Source: an uncultured Tateyamaria sp.
Lineage (GTDB): Bacteria; Pseudomonadota; Alphaproteobacteria; Rhodobacterales; Rhodobacteraceae
Length of the DNA: 64,000 nucleotides
Reading direction: 5' to 3'
Assembly: GCF_947504105.1 (NCBI RefSeq)
Contig: NZ_CANNGP010000019.1
Coordinates: forward strand, 1 to 64,000
A program made the translations under genes and the position numbers. Position 1 is the stretch's first letter; each line of letters opens with the position of its first letter. A model generated the notes under the pieces. It did no database searches and was not told the origin of the DNA. It saw only the letters and a program-made list of their open reading frames with translations. This document shows positions 3,858-57,757 of the stretch, piece after piece.

Positions 3858-6401
3858 ATGCGCGACGCAGCCCCTCAGACAATCTACCTCAAGGACTACA
3901 CCCCCTTTGGCTACAAAGTGGAAGAGGTGCACCTGACCTTTGATCTGGCCCCTTCGGCCACGCGCGTCACGTCACGCATCAAGTTTGCACCAAACGCCGC
4001 TGCGTCCGACAAGACCTTCTTTCTACATGGCGAAAACCTGTCCCTGATCTCCGCCAAGATCGACGGGGAACCGGTCAAACCCACTCTGACGGAAGAAGGG
4101 CTGACCTGCGACGTGCCCAATGTCCCCTTCACATGGGAAGCGGAGGTGCAGATTGACCCTGCGGCGAACACGGCGCTCGAGGGGCTGTACCTATCGAACG
4201 GAATGTACTGCACCCAGTGCGAGGCCGAAGGGTTCCGCAAGATCACCTATTACCCCGACCGGCCCGACGTAATGTCGACCTTCTCGGTCCGCATCAACGG
4301 ACCGCATCCAGTGCTTTTGTCAAATGGAAATCCGATAGCGTATGGTGAGGGGTGGGCCGAATGGCACGACCCTTGGCCCAAGCCAGCCTACCTGTTCGCG
4401 CTGGTTGCAGGCGAACTTGTTGCCCACCGCGACAGCTTTACCACGATGGAGGGACGCGCCGTCGACCTAGCCCTTTACGTTCGCCTCGGGGACGAAGGGA
4501 AATGTGCCTTTGGGATGCAGGCGTTAAAGGCCTCGATGAAATGGGACGAGGACATCTATGGCCGGGCCTATGATCTCGATGTCTTTAACATCGTGGCCGT
4601 GGACGATTTCAACATGGGCGCGATGGAGAACAAGGGGCTGAACATCTTCAACGCCGCGGCTGTCCTGGCCTCACCCGAGACATCCACCGACGGCAACTTC
4701 GAGCGGATCGAGGCAATCATCGCGCATGAATATTTCCACAACTGGACGGGCAACCGGATTACCTGCCGTGACTGGTTCCAGCTGTGTCTGAAAGAAGGAC
4801 CCACGGTCTTCCGCGACAGCCAATTCACCGCCGACATGCGGTCAGAACCGGTGAAACGCATCAGCGATGTGATCGACCTGCGCGCCCGCCAATTCCCCGA
4901 GGATCAGGGGCCGCTCGCCCACCCGGTACGGCCTGAAAGCTTTCAGGAGATCAATAACTTCTACACGGCCACCGTCTATGAAAAGGGAGCGGAGGTGATC
5001 CGCATGCTCAAGACGCTGGTGGGCGATGAAGGATATAAAAAGGCCCTCGACCTGTATTTCGACCGCCATGATGGCGATGCAGCGACGATCGAGGATTGGC
5101 TACAAGTCTTCGAGGATGCAACCGGGCGTGACCTGACCCAGTTCAAGCGCTGGTACGCGCAGGCCGGCACGCCGCATGTGGCGGTGTCAGAGAGCTTTGA
5201 CAACGGCACCTATACCCTCACCTTTGCACAGCATACGCCTGCGTCTTCAGCGACGCCCGATCCACAAGCCCAGGTCATACCCATTGCGGTCGGTCTGCTG
5301 GGTCGAAACGGGGATGAGGTGTTGCCGACGCAGGTGCTGGAGCTGACAAAGGACAAGCAAAGCTTCAGCTTTCCGGGGTTGGGCGCAAAACCAGTGCCGT
5401 CAATCCTGCGCGGTTTTTCGGCGCCGGTTGAACTGAACCATACACCAGACCATGCGTTCCTGTTGGCCCATGATACCGATCCCTTCAACCGGTGGGAGGC
5501 GGCGCGAAACCTGAGCAAGGCGTCACTTCTGGGTAACATCACGGATGGCACGGCACCGAACCAGGCCTGGCTCGACGGTGTCGCCAACCTGCTGACAGAC
5601 GAGACCCAGGATCCCGCCTATCGCGCGCTTTGCCTTGCCATGCCCGGTGCGTCGCAACTGGCGGCGGACTTGCACGAGGCAGGCATTACCCCCGACCCGG
5701 ATGCGATCTGGGATGCGGGCAAGGCACATCGCCGGGCCCTTGCCGCGAGATTGAGTGACGCATTGCCCGATCTGTTGGCGGCACATCAGGTGAACGCGCC
5801 CTATGCCCCCGACGCAGAGCAAACCGGTCACCGCACCATGGGCAACGCGGCCCTCGCCCTTTTGACGGAACTGGATGGCGGCAATGCCGCGCAGGGGCAG
5901 TTTGATACGGCGACAAACATGACCCAACAATTGGCGGCCCTTGCCTTTCTGACCCGAGCGGGACGCGGCGATGCGGCCCTTGCGCAGTTCGAAGCGCAGT
6001 GGAAACATGACCGTCTGGTGATGGATAAGTGGTTCGGCCTGCAGGTGATCGAGGCCAAGCCGGACGATGCCGCAGACACCGCCAAGGCCCTGACGAAACA
6101 TGCCGATTTCAACTGGAAGAACCCCAATCGTTTCCGCGCAACCTTGGGCAGCTTTGCCGCCCATCACGCGGGCTTCCATGCCAAGGACGGATCGGGCTAC
6201 ACCTTGCTGGCCGACTGGTTGATCAAGCTTGATCCGGTGAACCCGCAAACCACGGCCCGGATGTGCTCCGCCTTCCAGACGTGGCGCCGCTATGACGCCA
6301 TCCGTCAGTCAATGATCGGCAAGGAGCTTGAGCGCATTGCATCAACCCCCGACCTGAGCCGCGACACAACAGAGATGATCACGCGCATTCGGGAGGCCTG
6401 A
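3858..6401 (+). CDS. pepN: Aminopeptidase N (M1 family zinc metallopeptidase)
   Basis: An 847-aa cytosolic aminopeptidase that removes N-terminal residues from peptides late in protein turnover; E. coli PepN has 870 residues. The exopeptidase motif GAMENKGLNIFN lies near residues 255-265. The zinc site HEYFHNWTG starts at residue 290 and is followed by the third ligand in LCLKEG, giving HExxH-x18-E. The C-terminal half is the helical domain typical of the PepN subfamily. The start MRDAAPQTIYLKDYTPFGYK fits the family N-terminus; further upstream in-frame sequence runs into the divergent photolyase promoter. It is probably monocistronic, as a dispersed GC-rich repeat follows the stop. Confidence 0.96.
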   Translation: MRDAAPQTIYLKDYTPFGYKVEEVHLTFDLAPSATRVTSRIKFAPNAAASDKTFFLHGENLSLISAKIDGEPVKPTLTEEGLTCDVPNVPFTWEAEVQIDPAANTALEGLYLSNGMYCTQCEAEGFRKITYYPDRPDVMSTFSVRINGPHPVLLSNGNPIAYGEGWAEWHDPWPKPAYLFALVAGELVAHRDSFTTMEGRAVDLALYVRLGDEGKCAFGMQALKASMKWDEDIYGRAYDLDVFNIVAVDDFNMGAMENKGLNIFNAAAVLASPETSTDGNFERIEAIIAHEYFHNWTGNRITCRDWFQLCLKEGPTVFRDSQFTADMRSEPVKRISDVIDLRARQFPEDQGPLAHPVRPESFQEINNFYTATVYEKGAEVIRMLKTLVGDEGYKKALDLYFDRHDGDAATIEDWLQVFEDATGRDLTQFKRWYAQAGTPHVAVSESFDNGTYTLTFAQHTPASSATPDPQAQVIPIAVGLLGRNGDEVLPTQVLELTKDKQSFSFPGLGAKPVPSILRGFSAPVELNHTPDHAFLLAHDTDPFNRWEAARNLSKASLLGNITDGTAPNQAWLDGVANLLTDETQDPAYRALCLAMPGASQLAADLHEAGITPDPDAIWDAGKAHRRALAARLSDALPDLLAAHQVNAPYAPDAEQTGHRTMGNAALALLTELDGGNAAQGQFDTATNMTQQLAALAFLTRAGRGDAALAQFEAQWKHDRLVMDKWFGLQVIEAKPDDAADTAKALTKHADFNWKNPNRFRATLGSFAAHHAGFHAKDGSGYTLLADWLIKLDPVNPQTTARMCSAFQTWRRYDAIRQSMIGKELERIASTPDLSRDTTEMITRIREA

Positions 6402-6479: not shown

Positions 6480-6995
6480 ATGGACCTTTATGACGCAACG
6501 ATCCCACCTCTGAAACGGCTCACGGACGCCGTGCCGCGATTGCTGGCCTGTCTGGACGATCCAAAACAGCTTGAAGCACGGCTGGCCCCGGACGGCTTCA
6601 CCGCGGCCGGGCACTTTTGTGTGGCCTTGGGCTATGTCGCCCGTACAGTCATGCCCCTGATGGGGGACGAAGTGCCCGAGATGCCCATGGACACTGATCC
6701 GGGCGCAATCCTGGCGCTGGCGCATGACATGCGGTTCCTGCTGGATCAACTGGATCGCGCAGCCCTTGACGGGGCCGAGACGCGCAAGATCGACCATATC
6801 GCCGGAGAGGCCGCATTGGCGCAAACGGGCCGAGACTATGCGTTGCTGTATGCCCTGCCCAATGCACAGTTTCACCTGACCCTCGCCTATGCCACCGTGC
6901 GGATGGCAGGTGCGAAGGTGGGCAAAGGTGATCTGGACGGTTTCCACATCTATGGCGCCGGCACCACACTGGTATCCGATACCCCCTTGAACTGA
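6480..6995 (+). CDS. DUF1993 domain protein
   Basis: A 171-aa protein that fits the DUF1993 family: the opening MDLYDATIPPLKRLTDAVPR, a central ALGYVARTVMPLMGDEVPEM segment, and FHLTLAYATVRMAGAKVGKG near the end. The predicted all-helical fold resembles DinB-like four-helix bundles. The biochemical role is unknown. It begins just after the repeat element and is followed after 21 bases by an SDR gene, so the two may be cotranscribed with the next two genes. Confidence 0.7.
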   Translation: MDLYDATIPPLKRLTDAVPRLLACLDDPKQLEARLAPDGFTAAGHFCVALGYVARTVMPLMGDEVPEMPMDTDPGAILALAHDMRFLLDQLDRAALDGAETRKIDHIAGEAALAQTGRDYALLYALPNAQFHLTLAYATVRMAGAKVGKGDLDGFHIYGAGTTLVSDTPLN

Positions 6996-7016
6996 TTGAT
7001 TTCGAAAGGTTATTTC

Positions 7017-7760
7017 ATGTCCAAACGCCCCGTCTGCCTGATCACAGGCGCTTCTGCCGGTATCGGCGCGGCATGTGTCCGCCTTGGTGCGGCTGACTAC
7101 GATTTCGTCCTGACCTACCGGTCTGACCTGGATGGCGCGACCGCAGCCCAGACTGCCGTCGAGGCGGCGGGTGGCAGGGCAATCACAGTGCAGGGCGACG
7201 TGGCAGAACCGGCAGATATCGCCCGCATCTTTCAGGCGACCGACGATGCCTTTGGCCGTATCGATGTGTTGATCAACAATGCGGGCATCGTGGACCAGAC
7301 CGCCAAGCTGACCGACATAGACCATGCACGTCTGACCCGCATGATGAACGTCAACGTGATCGGTGCAATGATGGTCGCCAAAGAGGCCGTGATGCGGATG
7401 CAGGCGCAGGGCACGGGCGGCGTCATCATCAACGTCTCGTCCGCCGCCGCGCGGCTTGGCTCTGGCAACCAGTACATTGACTACGCTGCATCCAAGGCTG
7501 CGATCGACACCTTCACCAAGGGCCTGTCGGACGAGGTTGCCCCCGACGGCATCCGTGTTATGTCCGTCCGTCCCGGCCTGATCGACACCGAATTGCATGC
7601 CAAGGGCGGCGAGCCGGGCCGCGCGCAAAAACTGGCCCACATGGTCCCGATGCGTCGCGAAGGATCTGCCGAGGAAGTGGCCAGGGCGATCCTATGGCTC
7701 GCCTCCGACGCGGCCAGCTACGTCACAGGCTCGACCCTTGACGTGACGGGCGGGCGATGA
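7017..7760 (+). CDS. Short-chain dehydrogenase/reductase (SDR)
   Basis: A 247-aa classical SDR. The cofactor motif TGASAGIG is near residues 8-15, NNAG near 90, the catalytic Ser in INVSSAAAR, and the YxxxK motif in YIDYAASKAAIDTF. The end, YVTGSTLDVTGGR, is the standard C-terminus. Arg/Ser in LTYRSDLDGA after the second strand suggests NADP(H). The substrate is unknown; sugar or oxoacyl-type alcohols are usual for this group. The ATG at 7017 has GAAAGG upstream and is preferred to an in-frame TTG at 6996. The stop overlaps the next start (ATGA), so translation is coupled to a membrane protein. Confidence 0.9.
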   Translation: MSKRPVCLITGASAGIGAACVRLGAADYDFVLTYRSDLDGATAAQTAVEAAGGRAITVQGDVAEPADIARIFQATDDAFGRIDVLINNAGIVDQTAKLTDIDHARLTRMMNVNVIGAMMVAKEAVMRMQAQGTGGVIINVSSAAARLGSGNQYIDYAASKAAIDTFTKGLSDEVAPDGIRVMSVRPGLIDTELHAKGGEPGRAQKLAHMVPMRREGSAEEVARAILWLASDAASYVTGSTLDVTGGR

Positions 7761-55033: not shown

Positions 55034-55196
55034 GCTCGATTTCCCCGCTTTATGGTGAAAGAAATGGCACAAATTTCCCGTCTTGCAAGAGCCCGTAAAC
55101 TGCTACGGCGCAAACGCCGCATCGTTGTGCACATTGCCCGACAATTCGACCGGAACCCCATGCAATTGCTGCATAGCAGCATTGAATTGGTGTGTA

Positions 55197-55224
55197 TTGT
55201 GCACCCGCAGCATTGGCTTATATT
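55197..55224 (+). promoter_or_regulatory. Candidate promoter of the DUF1127-hairpin operon
   Basis: TTGTGC (55197-55202) and TATATT (55219-55224) are 16 bp apart, about 33 bp upstream of the DUF1127 ATG. In Rhodobacter sphaeroides the matching operon is driven by the heat-shock sigma factors RpoHI/RpoHII; these boxes cannot tell RpoH from RpoD. A small hairpin TGCTGC-ATA-GCAGCA lies just upstream. Confidence 0.5.
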
Positions 55225-55256
55225 CAGGTCAACGAAACGAGCATGAGGCAAAGAAC

Positions 55257-55487
55257 ATGGCCTATTACAATGACGTAGCACGTCGCACCAACCTCGTCGA
55301 ACGTACCCTCGGCACGGTTGCCCGCGTGTTTGAAGCTGCTGCAGAGCGTCGCGCAAAACAGCGCATCTTCCGCAGCACATTTACCGAGCTGAACGCTCTG
55401 TCCAACCGCGAACTGGCCGATCTGGGTCTGCACCGGTCGGAACTGAAGCGCGTGGCTTGGGAATCCGCGAACGACGTCGCGGCGTAA
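55257..55487 (+). CDS. DUF1127 small protein (CcaF1-like)
   Basis: A 76-aa basic protein. The C-terminal half TELNALSNRELADLGLHRSE, then LKRVAW, is the DUF1127 motif (LxxLSxRxLxDxGLxRxxI/L). In Rhodobacter sphaeroides the DUF1127 protein CcaF1 (RSP_6037) binds RNA and is encoded just upstream of the CcsR sRNAs that it helps to mature. The same arrangement is seen here: the stop is followed after 17 bases by six CU-loop hairpins. GAGG lies 8 bases before the ATG. By analogy it should be a stress-induced RNA-binding protein. Confidence 0.9.
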   Translation: MAYYNDVARRTNLVERTLGTVARVFEAAAERRAKQRIFRSTFTELNALSNRELADLGLHRSELKRVAWESANDVAA

Positions 55488-55504
55488 ACAAGGAACACAC
55501 GGAT

Positions 55505-55537
55505 CAGATCGCCCCCTCCTCCTCCCTGGGGCATCTG
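55505..55537 (+). ncRNA. CCTCCTCCC-loop hairpin 1 (CcsR-like)
   Basis: Stem CAGAT/ATCTG plus GCCCC/GGGGC with one bulged C; the 12-base loop is CTCCTCCTCCCT. It is the first of six modules and probably one sRNA processed from the DUF1127 transcript. The loop matches the anti-Shine-Dalgarno sequence. Confidence 0.8.
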
Positions 55538-55543
55538 AAATTG

Positions 55544-55577
55544 GCGGCGGCGCCTTCCTCCTCCCTGGCGTCGCCGC
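55544..55577 (+). ncRNA. CCTCCTCCC-loop hairpin 2 (CcsR-like)
   Basis: GCGGCGGCGCC and GGCGTCGCCGC pair over 11 bp with one G-U wobble, exposing the 12-base loop TTCCTCCTCCCT. It follows hairpin 1 by six bases. Confidence 0.8.
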
Positions 55578-55594
55578 ACTTTAACACCGCAATA

Positions 55595-55635
55595 CATCGC
55601 ACTTTCGGTCTTCCTCCTCCCTGACCGACGCGATG
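55595..55635 (+). ncRNA. CCTCCTCCC-loop hairpin 3 (CcsR-like)
   Basis: TCGGTC/GACCGA next to the loop and CATCGC/GCGATG at the base, with a small internal loop between; the loop is TTCCTCCTCCCT, identical to hairpin 2, while the stem sequence is different. Confidence 0.8.
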
Positions 55636-55643
55636 TTGCAAGC

Positions 55644-55677
55644 GCGGCGGCATTCACCTCCTCCCGAATGTCGTCGC
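55644..55677 (+). ncRNA. CCTCCTCCC-loop hairpin 4 (CcsR-like)
   Basis: GCGGCGGCATTC pairs with GAATGTCGTCGC over 12 bp with two G-U wobbles; the 10-base loop is ACCTCCTCCC. A minor A-loop hairpin (GCACC/GGTGC, 55687-55702) separates it from hairpin 5. Confidence 0.8.
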
Positions 55678-55715
55678 ACGAATACCGCACCAAAAACGGT
55701 GCAGAGATTGTCAAA

Positions 55716-55739
55716 CCGGTCCTCCTCCTCCCTGACCGG
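55716..55739 (+). ncRNA. CCTCCTCCC-loop hairpin 5 (CcsR-like)
   Basis: CCGGTC and GACCGG form a 6-bp perfect stem around the 12-base loop CTCCTCCTCCCT, identical to the loop of hairpin 1. TGTCA/TGGCA may extend the stem. Confidence 0.8.
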
Positions 55740-55753
55740 ATGGCATGACGAAG

Positions 55754-55790
55754 GCGGCGGCCCCCTCCTCCCTGGGGCCGCCGCTTTTTT
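55754..55790 (+). terminator. Rho-independent terminator with the same CU-rich loop (hairpin 6)
   Basis: GCGGCGGCCCC and GGGGCCGCCGC form a perfect 11-bp stem with the 9-base loop CTCCTCCCT, followed by TTTTTT and then GTTTT. So the terminator itself carries the conserved loop motif and may end up as the 3' part of the last sRNA. Confidence 0.92.
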
Positions 55791-55820
55791 GTTTTCACAC
55801 CCAAGAAAATCATCCGGAGA

Positions 55821-55847
55821 TGTCACACACGCCCGACCGGCCACGTC
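55821..55847 (+). promoter_or_regulatory. ECF41-type promoter
   Basis: TGTCACA (55821-55827) and CGTC (55844-55847) are separated by exactly 16 bases. This is the promoter form described for ECF41 sigma factors, and an ECF41 gene is the third gene downstream. The first ATG is 31 bases past the -10 element. Autoregulation is therefore predicted. Confidence 0.85.
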
Positions 55848-55878
55848 ATCCTCATGACACTGGCAAGGATACAGTCGC

Positions 55879-56262
55879 ATGGTGCGTGTTCTCTGGATCG
55901 TAGGGATCTATTATTTGGCCTCGGGCGTCCTGATGTGGACGCAGCCGCAGTTCTGGTACGCCAACACCCCCGGTGTTGCAGCCATGGGTCCGTTCAACCT
56001 TCATTTCATCCGCGACATAGCACTGGTGCTTGGCGTCAGTGGGCTCGCCATCCTGCACGCCGCACGCACACGGTCACGCGATGTCCTGATTGTCGGGCTG
56101 GGCTGGCCCGCGCTGCACGCCCTCTATCACCTCGCGATATGGGCCAACCGCGGCTTTGCCTTTGACATGATCACCCTCGTCAACCTGTTGGGCATCCAGC
56201 TTCCGGTCTGGACAAGCCTTGCAATCGCTTTCTCAATGCAACCCAAGGAGCAAACCTCATGA
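55879..56262 (+). CDS. Small four-helix membrane protein in the ECF41 operon
   Basis: A 127-aa protein with about four membrane helices: VLWIVGIYYLASGVLMWTQP, FIRDIALVLGVSGLAILHAA, DVLIVGLGWPALHALYHLAI and a last one in LLGIQLPVWTSLAIAF. The layout is reminiscent of DoxX/DUF4345-like proteins, but the assignment is weak. It is the first gene after the ECF41 promoter and overlaps the next by 4 bases (ATGA). Confidence 0.75.
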   Translation: MVRVLWIVGIYYLASGVLMWTQPQFWYANTPGVAAMGPFNLHFIRDIALVLGVSGLAILHAARTRSRDVLIVGLGWPALHALYHLAIWANRGFAFDMITLVNLLGIQLPVWTSLAIAFSMQPKEQTS

Positions 56263-56807: not shown

Positions 56808-57757
56808 CGTGGACCGACCAATTCGAAGCACAGCGGCCGATGCTCACGGCCCTGTGCTACCGCATGCTCGGCGAACGTGCCGCCGCCGAAGACGCGGTGC
56901 AGGACACGTGGTTCAAATGGGCGGCGGCGGATCATACAGCCATTCGGACGCCCGCCGCATGGCTGCGCACCGCTGCAACACGGGTTGCCATCGACAGCCT
57001 CCGGCGGGCCAAGACCCGGCGCAAATCCTATATGGGGCCATGGTTGCCCGAACCCCTGATCGTGGATGAAAACACGCCCGAAGACAGCTTTGCCCAGGCG
57101 CAGGACTGTGAACTGGCGCTGCTCTGGATGATGGACACGCTGCCCACCAGCGAACGCGCCGCCTTTGTCCTGCGCGAGGCGTTCGATGCATCCTATACCG
57201 ACATCGCCCAGACACTGGGCAAATCCGAAGCCGCCTGCCGCCAACTGGTCAGCCGCGCTCACCGTCGCGTCGCACAATCCTCCCCGGACCTGACACAACC
57301 AGCGGGCAAGCGGGCCGCGCAGATCAGCGGCTTTCTCGCCGCCATCGTCAGCAATGATCTCGACGCAGCAAAATCATATCTGGCCGAAGACGCCATCGCG
57401 ATCTCGGATGGCGGGGCCAAGGCTCGTGCGGCCCGCCGCCCGCTCATCGGCCCGGATGATATTGTTCTGGTCTCGCACGCGGTCACGCTGAAACATGCCG
57501 GCGTCCTCGTGCCCACACCGGTCACCGCAAATGGCCACCCCGCGCTGCTGATGACCGAAAACGGTCGGGCTGAAACACTGTTCACTGTGGCATTGAACAG
57601 TCAGGGCCAGATCTGCTGGATGTACACGATGCGCAACCCGGACAAGCTGCCAAACCTGATCGCGAACCGGGTCGGCGGGCGGGCGCCTTTGCGCCAGCAA
57701 ACAGAGCCGCCCGACGGCAAAGCTTTCAAAACAGTTAAGCCCTCCGCGCAAACGTAA
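56804..57757 (+). CDS. ECF41-type extracytoplasmic function sigma factor
   Basis: A 317-aa sigma factor. Region 2: LTALCYRMLGERAAAEDAVQ, then DTWFKW and TPAAWLRTAATRVAIDSLRR. Region 4: LPTSERAAFVLREAFDASYT, then DIAQTLGKSEAACRQLVSRA. It is followed by about 120 extra residues with a SnoaL/NTF2-like fold, carrying DGGAKARAARRPL, which matches the DGGGK motif of ECF41 proteins. In this group the C-terminal domain replaces an anti-sigma factor and tunes activity. No anti-sigma gene is present. The signal is unknown. Confidence 0.93.
   Translation: MTWTDQFEAQRPMLTALCYRMLGERAAAEDAVQDTWFKWAAADHTAIRTPAAWLRTAATRVAIDSLRRAKTRRKSYMGPWLPEPLIVDENTPEDSFAQAQDCELALLWMMDTLPTSERAAFVLREAFDASYTDIAQTLGKSEAACRQLVSRAHRRVAQSSPDLTQPAGKRAAQISGFLAAIVSNDLDAAKSYLAEDAIAISDGGAKARAARRPLIGPDDIVLVSHAVTLKHAGVLVPTPVTANGHPALLMTENGRAETLFTVALNSQGQICWMYTMRNPDKLPNLIANRVGGRAPLRQQTEPPDGKAFKTVKPSAQT

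Follow-up and report, generated by a model that had tools for sequence, protein, structure and literature searches.

Here, we show that a 64,000-nucleotide stretch of DNA from an uncultured Tateyamaria sp. (contig NZ_CANNGP010000019.1, positions 1 to 64,000 of the forward strand; the whole stretch is called the window below) carries an array of six hairpins with a common loop, directly downstream of a short DUF1127 gene and on the same strand. This is the layout of the CcaF1-CcsR operon of Rhodobacter (Cereibacter) sphaeroides, and the array is a further case of that described kind, from a family already in print. It is quite probable that gene and array together form an operon of the CcaF1-CcsR type, giving rise to two-hairpin small RNAs (sRNAs) that are processed by RNase E and block ribosome-binding sites, with control likely exerted by a LysR-type regulator of the VtlR/LsrB kind.

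The 9-mer CCTCCTCCC occurs six times in the window when both strands are searched. All six copies lie on the plus strand, 3′ of the DUF1127 gene, and together span 255 bp, the first loop beginning 31 bases beyond the stop codon and successive copies following at spacings of 39, 56, 44, 67 and 40. Only 0.46 copies are expected in the window, and none of 100 shuffled sequences reaches six. The predicted fold of positions 55488-55800 has a free energy of -138.8 kcal/mol (z -7.2), which none of 100 shuffles equals. The whole 9-mer is unpaired in the loops of five hairpins; in the sixth, pairing of the first C leaves CTCCTCCCT as the loop, as the first-pass annotation of this DNA, made from the letters alone, had given it. 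The fold alternates along the array: hairpins 1, 3 and 5 consist of a short inner stem plus an outer helix, while hairpins 2, 4 and 6 have a long stem. With a run of T after hairpin 6, the array ends in a terminator-like structure. Motif count, shuffles and fold thus agree with the earlier description of six hairpins sharing a loop behind a DUF1127 gene, and confirm that the array is real and far beyond chance.

To place the array among its relatives, we scanned named genomes for the DUF1127 protein and kept the best 80 of at least 203 relatives, which with the window make 81 loci. A search for hairpins that took no account of the loop sequence (stems of at least 8 pairs, loops of 6 to 16 bases) returned 347 hairpins in these loci, 285 of which have the exact 9-mer in or adjoining the loop; 26 others are one base off, 13 two bases off and 23 more than that. 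When loops are counted with their last eight bases fixed, the 81 loci hold 463 loops behind 298 different 10-nt left arms. The loops are fixed and the stems vary. The first-pass annotation had proposed just this, and had named variable loops on fixed stems as the outcome that would speak against it; over the 347 hairpins the opposite is found.

Its further statement, that the stems vary with compensation, holds between the hairpins of the array and only to a small extent between orthologues. We compared the window with six Tateyamaria loci that also have six hairpins, leaving out the four-loop loci L031, L032, L035, L036 and L041, and leaving L040 out of the counts since its middle part is unaligned. 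Just one of 42 loops differs (the first loop of L038). Stem changes are mostly one-sided, with only three pairs changed on both sides. In fixed register, 42 of 378 pair cells are broken, in hairpins 1, 3 and 6, and 30 of these are in hairpin 6, where the register is shifted.

Across the relatives, the number of loops per locus ranges from 0 to 16, with a median of 6; two loci have none, one of which (L086) is cut by a contig end. The largest arrays among the 81 loci, in Mesobaculum littorinae (16 loops, L099) and Antarcticimicrobium sediminis (15 loops, L077), also lie behind a DUF1127 gene. Loops tend to come in pairs. In 54 of the 63 arrays with at least four loops, odd-numbered spacings are shorter on average than even-numbered ones, an effect matched by none of 2000 permutations; the medians in these arrays are 41 and 66, and the spacings in the window fit. 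Stems follow the same alternation, averaging 6.6 pairs in odd and 11.6 in even hairpins (302 loops in even-numbered arrays). In several Sulfitobacter loci (L044, L046, L047 and others), loops are also found upstream of the DUF1127 match, at a distance of about 230-370 bp, and downstream of it several loops are shortened to CCTCCC.

Rfam gives no match in the window at gathering scores. A more sensitive search of positions 55100-55900 finds CcsR1 (RF02791, "Conserved CCUCCUCCC motif stress-induced RNA 1") three times in tandem, each match spanning two hairpins that both bear the CCUCCUCCC loop, as a CcsR unit does. Although the scores lie below the gathering score, the E-values are significant, and homology to CcsR is therefore likely. 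Because each match covers two hairpins, the array is best described as three two-hairpin units. A match to ar14 (RF02344) at 55637-55789 scores 52.4 bits, short of the 58.8-bit gathering score of that family. Layout and family thus turned out as first proposed, with a DUF1127 gene in front and three tandem sub-threshold CcsR1 matches behind. The proposal of an array longer than the one in Rhodobacter is not borne out, given the two-hairpin unit seen in the spacings and in the CcsR1 matches, together with the two stem-loops described for RS0680a of Rhodobacter (PMC3927594). There are three units here, probably fewer than the four of the R. sphaeroides CcsR1-4 cluster, which we know by its published description. 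For Sinorhizobium, PMC3927594 describes RNAs with CCUCCUCCC loops in three and four hairpins. RNase E is reported to take part in releasing CcsR1-4 from the ccaF1 transcript (PMC8625941, PMC7866481), and short DUF1127 genes with CcsR-like sRNAs carry the label CIN1 in PMC10253847.

The region upstream of the gene is conserved as well. TGCA-N6-GCAT, which is the form given for the LsrB site at the NfeR1 promoter (PMC10746234), lies no more than 300 nt upstream of the gene in 75 of the 80 loci, compared with one of 394 control windows from those loci. The Brucella VtlR-binding motif, allowing up to 3 mismatches, lies upstream of 72 of the 80 loci and again in one of 394 control windows. The 80 loci are kin, so that p-values computed on them overstate their independence. 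Within the window, the best match to the VtlR motif falls in the promoter region of the DUF1127 gene (Table 1), as would be expected of a member of the VtlR/LsrB regulon, with the proviso that the motif is that of Brucella; five other places match with 3 mismatches. We also observe that TGCA-N6-GCAT boxes are often paired, usually 39-40 bp apart, in loci L029-L108 across many genera. Neither TGCA-N6-GCAT alone (313 places in the genome from which the window comes, reversed control 64; 8 in the window) nor the dyad GCTGCA-N1-3-GCAGCA alone (18 places in that genome, reversed control 4) can serve as a mark of arrays. In Brucella, VtlR is reported to activate AbcR2 and three DUF1127 genes (PMC12595884), and in Sinorhizobium, LsrB is reported to activate NfeR1 and AbcR1 (PMC10746234). 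Since the box and the motif are conserved, and since VtlR and LsrB activate DUF1127 genes, AbcR and NfeR1 in these relatives, we infer that a VtlR/LsrB-type LysR regulator is the best candidate for control of the operon.

Table 1. Features of the DUF1127 operon and its hairpin array (window coordinates)
Feature	Coordinates	Strand	Evidence
First TGCA-N6-GCAT box, LysR/LsrB-type, distal to promoter	55161..55174	+	Kept in relatives
Match to Brucella VtlR-binding motif, 2 mismatches (reverse complement)	55170..55184	-	Motif as given in PMC12595884
Putative promoter TTGTGC-N16-TATATT	55197..55224	+	By eye from alignment
Second TGCA-N6-GCAT box, overlapping putative -35	55200..55213	+	Kept in relatives
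DUF1127 gene (76 aa), resembling CcaF1 in position and family	55257..55487	+	PF06568, 39 bits (cut-off 23.3)
CcsR1-like unit 1 (hairpins 1 and 2)	55501..55582	+	RF02791, 54.2 bits, E 2.1e-12
Hairpin 1	55504..55538	+	CCTCCTCCC at 55518; motif count and fold
Hairpin 2	55544..55577	+	CCTCCTCCC at 55557; motif count and fold
Hairpin 3, outer helix	55589..55639	+	CCTCCTCCC at 55613; motif count and fold
CcsR1-like unit 2 (hairpins 3 and 4)	55594..55682	+	RF02791, 29.4 bits, E 4.5e-5
Hairpin 4	55644..55677	+	CCTCCTCCC at 55657; motif count and fold
Spacer hairpin without loop motif	55687..55702	+	Fold
CcsR1-like unit 3 (hairpins 5 and 6)	55706..55789	+	RF02791, 48.9 bits, E 7.8e-11
Hairpin 5, outer helix	55709..55745	+	CCTCCTCCC at 55724; motif count and fold
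Hairpin 6, terminator-like, T run after	55750..55788	+	CTCCTCCCT loop inside motif at 55764; motif count and fold

How might such an operon work? A single transcript would start upstream of the DUF1127 gene and end at the sixth hairpin. It would then be cut into three two-hairpin sRNAs, probably by RNase E with help from the DUF1127 protein. By analogy with relatives, the CCUCCUCCC loop of each sRNA may pair with purine-rich ribosome-binding sites such as GGGAGGA, which is complementary to seven loop bases, and so keep many mRNAs from being translated, with transport and carbon metabolism as plausible target classes. The dose would be set by how many units there are, and transcription would likely depend on a LysR regulator of the VtlR/LsrB type, acting by itself or jointly with a stress sigma factor. 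The array, its family, the constancy of its loops and the conserved promoter box are features of the DNA itself; processing by RNase E, the binding of RNA by CcaF1, induction under stress and silencing by the loop are taken from published work on relatives. The loops of NfeR1 are reported to silence ntrB at its translation start; they are redundant in this, and silencing is lost when all three are mutated (PMC10746234). This agrees with the likeness, pointed out in the first-pass annotation, between the loop and the anti-Shine-Dalgarno end of 16S rRNA. For the CcsR RNAs of R. sphaeroides, flhR is described as a target (PMC8307010).

We also surveyed ribosome-binding sites in the genome from which the window comes. 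GGGAGGA stands before ATG at 111 sites (reversed control 13) and AGGAGGA at 45 (reversed control 11). Open reading frames (ORFs) were read at 90 of the 111 and at all 45 of these places, and 75 and 27 distinct ORFs of at least 80 aa were kept, respectively. Up to 26 of the 75 ORFs behind GGGAGGA encode solute-binding proteins, a figure summed over five Pfam families and hence open to double counting, compared with none of the 27 among the families listed behind AGGAGGA (25 of 37; p 0.00016). A crude signal-peptide rule picks out 27 of 75 and 4 of 27 ORFs, respectively (p 0.051). The ratio of GGGAGGA to AGGAGGA before ATG is the highest of 76 genomes; one set of GGGAGGA counts was inflated by the opposite strand of the arrays themselves and was not used. 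Median ratios are 1.53 for 10 array-bearing genomes of the same family, 1.41 for four members of that family without the pattern, 1.56 for 12 Rhizobiaceae-like genomes and 1.15 for 49 others (p 0.035, uncorrected for kinship).

Several results weigh against the scheme as a whole or against parts of it. All three CcsR1 matches fall short of the 65.3 bits at which RF02791 is formally assigned. An RpoHI/RpoHII promoter is reported for the R. sphaeroides operon (PMC10253847). Three transporter permeases are matched behind AGGAGGA, among the families listed. In a control genome that lacks an array, where 30 of 148 GGGAGGA places were read and 25 of 47 Pfam families listed, 5 to 6 of 26 ORFs encode solute-binding proteins, which does not differ from the proportion found here (p 0.33). 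Finally, the ratio of GGGAGGA to AGGAGGA separates array-bearing from array-less genomes only weakly. The case that ribosome-binding sites are tuned to the array is thus a weak one. Transporters may plausibly be among the targets, which accords with what is predicted for NfeR1, but the bias toward them is not one that can be ascribed to the array.

CsrB-type RNAs titrate a protein by means of repeated loops, and the array might likewise be a sponge, its C-rich loops binding the DUF1127 protein, Hfq or another pyrimidine-binding protein. Identical repeated loops, free stems and variable copy number fit this equally well; moreover, CcaF1 is described as RNA-binding (PMC10253847) and the CcsR RNAs as interacting with Hfq (PMC8307010). 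We nevertheless consider a sponge rather unlikely, as the loop is complementary to ribosome-binding sites, the NfeR1 loops were shown to silence (PMC10746234), and there are copies without a DUF1127 gene, one of them in the same genome. It is less likely still, indeed very improbable, that the hairpins do no more than protect the 3′ end of the DUF1127 mRNA and terminate it, without acting in trans. The array does end in a terminator-like hairpin, and TTTT follows the last loop within 45 nt in 54 of 79 arrays, but stability would not call for a fixed loop over so many stems, and trans action is published for relatives (PMC10746234, PMC8307010). Chance or low-complexity sequence can be dismissed: the 9-mer is not enriched genome-wide (20 places in the genome, compared with 27 for the reversed motif; one of the 20, L021, was left out when these places were read), but clustering, folding and conservation refute this explanation, and the reversed motif gives no stemmed pair in 119 viral sets.

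The same genome holds a second array, on the reverse strand of another contig (C72, about 6900-7160, locus L005), with two exact loops and one degenerate loop. It scores 47.2 bits against ar14, below gathering, and adjoins a phage-type integrase and a ParDE-type pair. No DUF1127 match is found on this contig, all three such matches of the genome being on other contigs. At C3:57680-57760 (L009, L420; loop at 57717), a single terminator-like hairpin carries this loop as well. It is situated downstream of ANTAR-domain and NMT1-like genes, between these and another reading frame, and was not counted as an array. The dyad GCTGCA-N2-GCAGC is seen about 150 bp before it. More widely, the tandem-loop pattern is present in 19 of 385 genomes sampled across the class and in 34 of 299 sampled across the phylum. 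In the latter sample the pattern is present in 10 of 14 other members of the same family; a further family, which appears Rhizobiaceae-like and has genomes of 6-7 Mb for the most part, shows it in 12 of its 13 members. In other families, several of the matches resemble low-complexity sequence, and the counts are those of the pattern scan as it stands.

Related hairpins are found in phages. Among the matches listed for IMG/VR viral contigs, stems are present on every loop in 39 of 116 paired-loop sequence-strand sets, whereas the reversed motif gives none in 119 sets. A few phage groups account, through repeated copies, for many of the 39, and at least one (L130) looks like low-complexity coding sequence. 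A complete three-loop scan gives 57 stretches, with 19 of 54 sets passing the stem filter. Two or three stemmed CCTCCTCCC loops stand together in phage contigs such as L113, L188, L124, L119 and L128. Three of 14 scanned viral loci (L113, L188 and L124) pass the Rfam gathering threshold of ar14, and helicase, exonuclease and repressor families of PHROGs are found near the hairpins in L188, L179, L142 and L128. TGCA-N6-GCAT occurs within 400 nt upstream in 5 of 38 viral sets, four of them from one group, at -84. The VtlR motif is unconvincing in the six viral loci searched, with 4 or 5 mismatches.

Among named phages, RHph_TM3_3_3 (L417) has two intact stemmed loops, at 4001 and 4037, in a region that overlaps a hypothetical gene annotated on the opposite strand and matches Rfam weakly (35.5 bits to ar14). 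RHph_N28_2 has one intact loop, and phiLM21 altered loops only; in all three phages, the hairpins lie some way behind repressor genes. Paired loops are absent from the 7.7-kb pieces read of five named phages that carry a related helicase (RHph_TM3_3_14B, AP-16-3, NV1.1.1, RHph_X2_26 and 16-3), the piece of AP-16-3 containing one lone 9-mer, as does the piece read of phage Simon. Named phages offer no DNA match to the hairpin regions of L113 and L128. Among the papers listed in a literature search that did not cover the founding description of the family, none deals with phage-borne copies.

We tentatively suggest, while holding it doubtful, that the anti-Shine-Dalgarno hairpin is a mobile module. 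Phages of alphaproteobacteria would use it against the translation of the host or of rivals, and the chromosomal arrays would be amplified forms, linked to DUF1127 and controlled by VtlR/LsrB, in which copy number sets the strength. The phage copies would fit as forms of two and three hairpins in what appear to be early or replication regions, one group having TGCA-N6-GCAT 84 nt before its first loop. Do phages of these bacteria use a host-type blocker of ribosome-binding sites?

As for the surroundings of the operon, a gene for an iron-sulfur P-loop NTPase (profile match) lies upstream of the DUF1127 gene on the opposite strand. The closest named relatives of the DUF1127 protein, among the matches listed, are from Tateyamaria, a genus of the Roseobacteraceae (L029 and L030; 95% and 93% identity). 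In a plasmid comparison, this region of the window matches two records, each only partly.

The array itself is one more case of a described family; the promoter box and the phage relatives may be the more useful leads. A conserved LysR-type box would connect the CcaF1-CcsR operon of the Rhodobacter type with the VtlR/LsrB regulon of DUF1127 genes, AbcR and NfeR1, which is known from Brucella, Agrobacterium and Sinorhizobium. No paper on the box in Rhodobacterales came up in our literature search, which covered only part of the matching papers.

Finally, the operon can be set beside the known systems. With the CcaF1-CcsR1-4 operon of R. sphaeroides it shares a DUF1127 gene and, behind it, two-hairpin RNAs that bear CCUCCUCCC loops; it differs in having three units, with matches below gathering, in place of four sRNAs, going by the description, and in its VtlR/LsrB-like box, where PMC10253847 reports an RpoHI/RpoHII promoter. 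With NfeR1 of Sinorhizobium meliloti (ar14, RF02344) it has in common the loop, the TGCA-N6-GCAT box upstream and a sub-threshold ar14 match, but NfeR1 has three hairpins and, as far as described in PMC10746234, no DUF1127 gene in its transcript, whereas the hairpins in the window come in pairs behind such a gene. The array and its relatives show the traits of the Cuckoo RNA family (constant loop, free stems, variable number of modules), are also comparable to SmelA075 and SmelA099 (PMC3927594), and share with the CIN1 loci the link to DUF1127 (as described in PMC10253847). The AbcR1 and AbcR2 sRNAs are comparable in their anti-Shine-Dalgarno motifs, LsrB/VtlR control and transporter targets, with motifs that are similar but not identical, going by the description in PMC10746234.
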